A stretch of DNA of 64,000 nt, taken from Limisphaerales bacterium (GTDB lineage: Bacteria > Verrucomicrobiota > Verrucomicrobiia > Limisphaerales > AAA164-E04). The stretch lies in the NCBI GenBank assembly GCA_024761205.1, contig JAMASS010000009.1:1-64000 (forward strand). Direction: 5' to 3'. The notes under the pieces were generated by a model. That model had not been told where the DNA came from, ran no database searches, and was given only the letters and a program-made list of their open reading frames with translations. Numbering within the stretch: the first letter of the stretch is position 1; each line of letters opens with the position of its first letter. Shown here in pieces: positions 27,939-29,465 of this stretch. The translations under genes were made by a program, and so were the position numbers.

Positions 27939-28125
27939 CTAGGGTGTCAGCGTCCAAATGGTGATGCCGGGCGGGGTGTTCTCGGGAGGCGGGCCGACTT
28001 CGAACTGTGTCAGAAGCGCATTACCAGCCCGTAGCTCGCCACGATACTGCGGTTGTTGCAGGTTGCTGACGACGTTGAAGGCGGCGACAGAAGCGGGTTG
28101 GAGGGCGAGGGTGGCTTGGTTTTAG
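27939..28125 (-). pseudogene. truncated paralogue of the neighbouring PEP-CTERM protein (N-terminal fragment)
   Basis: On the minus strand the frame ending in TAG at 27939-27941 reads ATLALQPASVAAFNVVSNLQ and later LLTQFEVGPPPE and TIWTLTP. It matches the start of the PEP-CTERM gene at 28431-29255, which has TALALQPDAAAQSVAVSNLG, IQFTVGPLPEGL and DWTLNKI at the same spacing. The fragment has a TAA just before its signal-peptide core and stops after about 60 codons, so it is an N-terminal stub left by duplication followed by deletion. No sorting signal remains. Confidence 0.7.
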
Positions 28126-28430: not shown

Positions 28431-29255
28431 CTAGGCGGCGGCTCGCTGCCCTGCTTGGCGGCGGCGATGCCAAAGGGCGAAGGCGCCCAAGCCCAAGGCA
28501 AAGAAAAGCGCATACTCCGAGGGCTCCGGCACCGCCACTGCGCTCACGCTGAATTGATAAGGAAGGCGTAGGCCATTTGGGTCAACAACCTCTACCCATC
28601 CCTCCCCCATATGATACCAATGATCGTCGCCAATCGACCATCCCTGCAGAGACCCGGCGTCCTCATTCGGCACGTCTGTTGCGCGTAGTATGTAAAAATC
28701 ATCCTCTGATGGTAGCCCTGCGCTCGTATACGTCAGCCAATAGGACGTCTCCGGTTCCAGGAAAACCGTAGTGCCGGCGGGCGGCACAAACTCATACTCT
28801 CTTATCGTCCTTGGTTGATCCCCGCTCAACACCGTCAACGGGCTATCGAGGGAGCCGGGGGCGCCAAAGGTATCTCTTAGAATACTGGCCTCAAAACTGC
28901 CGGGTGTGCCTTGGCCCTGGGGTTCACTAAAACTCCCGGTGATCTTGTTCAGCGTCCAGTCGGTGAGGCCTTCGGGAAGCGGGCCGACGGTGAACTGTAT
29001 CGCTGTCGATTCACCATTATAAAGAGGGAGGTCCCACTCCCAGCTCTGTCCCAAGTTGCTGACGGCGACGCTCTGAGCAGCGGCGTCAGGTTGGAGGGCG
29101 AGGGCGGTCAGGAGGCCGGCGAGGGTGAGTTTAAGCCCTTGGCCTGTCCGCCGAGGGCGGTCTGTCTTCAAGCGATAAACTCGGGGGGGGGGGGTACTCT
29201 CCGCGAATGTCCGGGTGAGGTTAATTCGGCTCCAGATTTCATCATCTCTGCACAT
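28431..29255 (-). CDS. PEP-CTERM-anchored secreted protein
   Basis: Exported beta-rich protein with a C-terminal sorting signal: VPEPSEYALFFALGLGAFAL, i.e. Pro-Glu-Pro, a single hydrophobic helix and an RRR tail (HRRRQ), recognised by exosortase. A signal-peptide core (LTLAGLLTALALQ, ending near DAAAQ) lies at about residues 43-60 of the frame from ATG 29255. The body resembles choice-of-anchor surface proteins with FLEPETSYWLTYTSAG. The start is uncertain: ATG 29255 lies upstream of a 12-G run, while a TTG at 29171 lies downstream of it and would give a normal short signal peptide. If translation begins upstream of the run, slippage would switch expression. A truncated paralogue lies 300 bp downstream. 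Confidence 0.82.
   Translation of the reverse strand: MCRDDEIWSRINLTRTFAESTPPPRVYRLKTDRPRRTGQGLKLTLAGLLTALALQPDAAAQSVAVSNLGQSWEWDLPLYNGESTAIQFTVGPLPEGLTDWTLNKITGSFSEPQGQGTPGSFEASILRDTFGAPGSLDSPLTVLSGDQPRTIREYEFVPPAGTTVFLEPETSYWLTYTSAGLPSEDDFYILRATDVPNEDAGSLQGWSIGDDHWYHMGEGWVEVVDPNGLRLPYQFSVSAVAVPEPSEYALFFALGLGAFALWHRRRQAGQRAAA
29183..29194. repeat. homopolymer run of twelve G (poly-C on the coding strand of the PEP-CTERM gene)
   Basis: Twelve consecutive G on the plus strand lie inside the 5' end of the PEP-CTERM reading frame, encoding Pro-Pro-Pro, or in its leader if the TTG at 29171 is the start. Such tracts are slippage-prone. It is the longest mononucleotide run I noticed in the window. 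Confidence 0.9.
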
Positions 29256-29465
29256 AACATAAACGGTTAAAGTTTCATTCATTCCCCCGGGCTCATTCAA
29301 AGCCGCTTGTCGGGAGACCGTTTCTCAGCAGACCTTCACGGGCGGAATCCGTCAAGGAGGAAACGTGATTTTTTTTCGGTTTTTTCTCAGCGGGCGGCCC
29401 TCAGCGGTGGAACGGGGCGAGGATGGGCGGCGAGGCTGCTTGCAAGGATGTAGCGCAACTAGTGT

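Follow-up and report, generated by a model that had tools for sequence, protein, structure and literature searches.

The 64,000-nucleotide stretch of the Limisphaerales genome analysed here (the window) carries a run of twelve G residues at positions 29183–29194, located after the upstream ATG codons and ahead of the signal-peptide sequence in a gene for a predicted exported protein. The question raised by this locus is whether the run is a slipped-strand switch that alternately connects the gene to its start codon and disconnects it, as the sequence-only reading had proposed, or whether it has another origin or function.

The tract and the gene that contains it

The open reading frame that includes the run (28431–29300) lies on the minus strand, as do all of the features described below; the tract is therefore G12 on the plus strand and C12 in the message. 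It is the longest homopolymer of the window, in which no other G or C run reaches 10 nt, the next longest being a C9, and A/T runs do not exceed 8 nt. When the lengths of all G/C runs in the window other than the G12 tract itself were extrapolated, the expectation was 0.008 G/C runs of ≥12 nt per 64 kb, or approximately 0.6 per genome (4.94 Mb). The genome contains 29 such runs; a chance homopolymer was thus rejected, and the run noted from the sequence is not only present but far beyond chance. Poly-A/T runs of ≥10 nt number only five in the whole genome, so that a general richness in homopolymers is not the explanation. Subtraction of eight poly-G runs (25–87 nt, directly after the leader sequence described below) and of one run of 68 nt on contig C79, which look like sequencing artefacts, leaves approximately 20 C/G tracts of ≥12 nt that appear to be genuine, and 15 of these are located at the same leader/signal-peptide site as the tract of the window. 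Many G10/C10 runs were also found on contigs C36, C57, C62 and C64, in very long GC-rich open reading frames that, by eye, resemble genes for modular polyketide synthases; chance is the probable origin of these runs.

Read from the 5′ ATG at 29282 with a tract of 12 nt, the gene (28431–29282) encodes a protein of 283 amino acids. This protein has no Pfam match, and it exceeds the cut-offs of the choice-of-anchor R profile of NCBIfam (NF041539; 42.9 bits, cut-off 30) and of the PEP-CTERM profile TIGR02595 (21.6 bits, cut-off 16; motif VPEPSEYALFFALGLGAFALWHRRR). Two exosortase genes (PF09721), located on contigs C78 and C18 of the same genome, are also above the cut-off. The profile matches and the two exosortases bear out the earlier assignment of the product as a PEP-CTERM protein of the exosortase type. 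The signal-peptide region (LKTDRPRRTGQGLKLTLAGLLTALALQPDAAAQ, 29070–29171) is almost identical in all copies of the gene that carry a tract, and the N-terminus of all copies, as judged by eye, consists of a basic and hydrophobic stretch ending in AxA. Directly downstream of the gene lies the decayed remnant of another member of the same family (27942–28115; E = 4e-7).

A dispersed and diversifying gene family

A protein search of the same genome yielded approximately 20 relatives of the window protein; the leader, when used as a DNA query, was recovered at most of them and, in addition, at contig ends. The 150–200-nt leader, the tract and the start of the signal peptide recur together at no fewer than 19 places in the 4.9-Mb genome, and 17 paralogous genes with a tract were recovered. 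The repeated unit consists, from its 5′ end, of an A-rich stretch, the promoter-like pair TTGACG-17 nt-TTTGCT, approximately 100 nt of conserved leader, the sequence ATGATG, approximately 45 nt, GAGAGTA and the poly-C tract, followed by GAGTTTATCGCTTGAAG, the signal-peptide region, a variable body and the PEP-CTERM end. At the end of many copies is a GC-rich inverted repeat that resembles a terminator and has T residues after it, and the sequences outside the unit are mostly unrelated between copies. In the window, the conserved leader, which is common to 16 clean copies, occupies positions 29195–29380. The promoter-like pair was located there by alignment (29327–29355), where it reads TTGACG-17 nt-TCTGCT (TTTGCT in most copies) and has a weak −10 element; it was missed by a consensus promoter scan, and its position is also kept in the paralogues that lack a tract.

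The tract contains between 11 and 23 C residues in 16 other copies. In the eight copies that were cleanly assembled, its lengths are 12, 14, 15, 14, 13, 14, 11 and 14 nt and represent all three frame classes, whereas the flanking sequences are 85–92% identical and the 45 nt 3′ of the tract are often identical. The same 45 nt are shared by the copies on contigs C53, C15 and C76 and by a second copy on C89, with tracts of ~17, ≥13, ~17 and ~20 nt, respectively. Repeat length therefore differs between near-identical sequences (11–15 nt in the clean copies), a comparison that is between paralogues only. The second C89 copy is a full family member located on the same contig as the window and outside it (92.7–93.7 kb), and its tract is bridged by N residues. 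Three copies were scaffolded across the tract with N gaps (~16, ~16 and ~20 nt), six genes lie at a contig end and start with the tract, and eight leaders break off at the tract, two of which represent a divergent leader type. All of these lengths are taken from an assembly consensus that apparently rests on short reads, and they are uncertain where the tract is at the end of a contig. Irrespective of tract class, the genes are open through to the PEP-CTERM end.

The dispersed copies thus share conserved ends and differ in the middle, as in an opa-like repertoire, and the pattern of substitution follows this division. When 13 tract copies were pooled, the signal-peptide region (pS 0.079, pN 0.033) and the PEP-CTERM end (pS 0.098, pN 0.051) gave pN/pS values of 0.4–0.5, whereas in the mature region pN (0.341) exceeded pS (0.282). 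In the mature part of the closest pairs, counted after removal of residues near gaps, pN/pS was approximately 2–3 (2.6–3.1), with, for example, 38 non-synonymous versus 5 synonymous changes. For four of the closest pairs, Fisher's P values were 0.02–0.045 at kappa 1, that is, with no correction for transition bias, and 0.005–0.01 at kappa 3. The mature region thus appears to be under diversifying selection; as the pairs are few and not independent of one another, this evidence is good but not final. The low pS at both ends suggests that these parts may have been kept alike through gene conversion.

Reading frames, start codons and the proposed switch

The upstream ATGs and the TTG at 29171 are present as stated in the sequence-only reading. 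That reading was accurate in placing an ATG upstream of the tract, but the ATG is not a single one: two upstream frames, each with its own ATGs, compete for the gene. The first of them, here called f1, contains an ATG in 15 of the 16 clean leaders and joins the frame of the gene when the tract length is 0 mod 3. In the window, where this is the case, f1 begins at the alternative 5′ ATG (29280–29282) after a G-rich, Shine-Dalgarno-like stretch, and the ATGs at 29282 and 29255 are in frame and give products of 283 or 274 amino acids. The second frame, f2 (ATGATGAAA...), includes ATGATG (29240–29245), which is conserved in all of the 16 clean leaders, and is open as far as the tract in every one of them. 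It joins the frame of the gene only at a length of 1 mod 3; at the 12 nt of the window it is out of frame, and at 13 nt the ATGs at 29260, 29245 and 29242 would be in frame instead. The third frame, f3, which would require a length of 2 mod 3, has no ATG start (TTG in one copy). Two types of leader were distinguished. In type 1 (n = 8), the 5′ ATG opens f1 all the way to the tract, and in type 2 (n = 7), there is a short upstream open reading frame beginning with MKLNF, the stop codon of which overlaps ATGATG by 4 nt in four of the seven copies. Both clean copies with a length of 0 mod 3 have a type 1 leader, a suggestive pattern, although two cases are far from enough for a test.

A long simple repeat thus lies between start codon and gene body, and its length sets the frame. 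We consider it likely, from these sequence features, that the genes constitute an opa-like multigene family of PEP-CTERM surface proteins, the translation of which is randomly turned on and off by slipped-strand changes in poly-C length. Each locus has the same promoter-like region and leader, and the long poly-C would fall within the first part of the coding region. Mispairing of slipped strands at replication would lengthen or shorten the tract by one base or by a few. The start codon used would precede the tract, being ATGATG or, for some leaders, the 5′ ATG of the other frame, and the length modulo 3 would decide whether the signal peptide and the protein are made. A gene would be on from ATGATG at 1 mod 3, on from f1 at 0 mod 3 where that ATG is present, and off from both ATG frames at 2 mod 3. 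Since there are two upstream start frames, up to two of the three lengths may be on, so that the switch may be leaky. With at least 19 loci, a population would display ever-changing combinations of these presumably surface-located proteins, possibly selected by pressure from a host, phages or rivals. The mutL gene of this genome is intact, so that no mutator background is implied, and loss of MutL was rejected as the cause. Phase variation, as proposed from the single window copy, gains support from the ≥19 copies of leader plus tract, with variable lengths in all frame classes, and from the diversifying mature region, and also from the two observations on start codons described below.

The strongest alternative, which we nevertheless regard as unlikely, is that translation starts at the TTG 3′ of the tract (29169–29171). 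The tract would then be located in the 5′ untranslated region and would switch no frame, being either inert or a gradual modulator of translation or mRNA folding. Every copy with the standard downstream sequence retains this TTG, which would give a good, compact signal peptide, and in the copy on contig C68 an ATG follows the tract at a distance of approximately 65 nt. That genes stay intact where the tract puts them out of frame would be expected from a TTG start, but also from genes that are expressed part-time through frame switching. Against the TTG, no strong Shine-Dalgarno sequence precedes it, and ATGATG is conserved, with its frame open, in 16 of 16 clean leaders. Furthermore, the four paralogues without a tract (on C2, C34, C14 and C47) lack the TTG at the matching place and have an ATG, in frame with the signal peptide, at the place that matches ATGATG. 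The copy on C43, in which the tract of 11 C is out of frame, contains a 2-nt insertion between the tract and the signal peptide; this insertion restores a frame of 261 amino acids from ATGATG and breaks the frame from the TTG, so that the protein is possible from ATGATG alone. The compensated frame of C43 and the ATG of the tractless paralogues favour translation through the tract, and the TTG is judged to be the less likely start.

It is very improbable that the tract is an artefact of assembly or sequencing, or an inert repeat spread by duplication and conversion. After several leaders, 25–87 G residues are present in place of C, always beside a contig end or an N gap, and these resemble the signal loss of two-colour Illumina chemistry, in which a lost signal is called as G (PMC13218037). 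Because they are sited only after leaders that read poly-C in other copies, or before N gaps or contig ends, the poly-G runs were rejected as real tracts and are probably such signal loss. However, in eight copies the assembly runs cleanly across the tract into normal sequence on either side, and the poly-G runs are most simply read as a failure of reads where poly-C begins, genuine poly-C being the likely cause of the artefact. If so, the true lengths at broken loci may exceed the assembled ones. Short-read assemblies break at poly-C in exactly these genes, and similar repertoires may be widely missed. As for an inert repeat, duplication alone leaves the preserved genes, the compensated frame and the excess of non-synonymous change unexplained.

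In fim-type switches of Bordetella, the tract lies between the activator site or the −35 element and the −10 element. A transcriptional switch of this kind, acting through promoter spacing, is the least probable alternative: poly-C of ~15 nt is indeed found upstream of surface-protein genes, but the sole conserved promoter-like pair is located ~130–160 nt upstream of the tract with a constant spacing of 17 nt, and the tract sits within a conserved open frame.

The frame switch preferred here may be part of a wider system, in which a phase-variable and positively selected PEP-CTERM repertoire of at least 19 loci uses length modulo 3 to select between two start frames and their N-terminal leaders (two states on, one off), while a sigma factor and two DUF1559 prepilin-like proteins are switched by similar tracts. 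We regard this wider reading as possible, though somewhat short of probable.

Comparison with known systems and other tracts in the genome

Most known examples of large phase-variable surface repertoires under diversifying selection come from pathogens. In the opa genes of Neisseria the repeat is placed in the signal-peptide region. The opa system comprises several unlinked intact loci with a frame-shifting coding repeat, constant and hypervariable parts, and positive selection on the exposed parts (PMC5020929). The family described here is similar to opa in its several unlinked loci, its repeat within the coding region, its predicted slipped-strand frame switching and its apparently positively selected variable parts. 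It differs in having poly-C instead of the pentamer CTCTT, at least 19 loci versus 3–12, and two upstream start frames. The products are not Opa proteins proper, having a PEP-CTERM/choice-of-anchor R architecture instead of an eight-stranded outer-membrane β-barrel. The pmp genes of Chlamydia (pmpG family), a surface-protein multigene family for which poly-G has been proposed to mediate slipped-strand phase variation (PMC4488443), likewise combine a homopolymer tract with a surface-protein multigene family and belong to the same superphylum; however, they encode autotransporters of unrelated sequence, and only some members have a tract. In Akkermansia muciniphila, which is of the same phylum, long homopolymers are enriched at gene ends and have been suggested to phase-vary, and 21 PEP-CTERM proteins are present (PMC3048395); its highlighted tracts are short (G8, C10) and located in capsule genes, not in a PEP-CTERM family.

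Our literature search found no phase-variable PEP-CTERM family. The leader was found neither in 57 related genomes, three of which belong to the same genus, nor in the viral contigs searched, and in those three genomes the family is nearly absent, with weak protein relatives only. The repertoire thus looks recent or lineage-specific. A repertoire that relies on exosortase/PEP-CTERM export, and in a lineage that is not known to be pathogenic, points to some pressure (host recognition, phages or rivals) as the driver of antigenic-style variation, and PEP-CTERM proteins might then serve as variable surface antigens.

Several further C/G tracts were found elsewhere in the genome. An intergenic repeat with a C/G tract (10 and 14 nt) is present at the ends of contigs C78 and C79 and is unrelated to the PEP-CTERM family. 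A C20 (C4: 86047–86066) lies in a short open reading frame with no family match. A C15 (C5: 19752–19766) precedes the conserved regions of a possibly phase-variable sigma-70-type factor (PF04542, PF04545). Two DUF1559-type proteins have a tract directly before the prepilin motif, one of C15 (C11: 25023–25037) and the other of G16 (C78: 46615–46630). The G16 tract codes for the glycines that precede the cleavage site, and an ATG is in frame with it.
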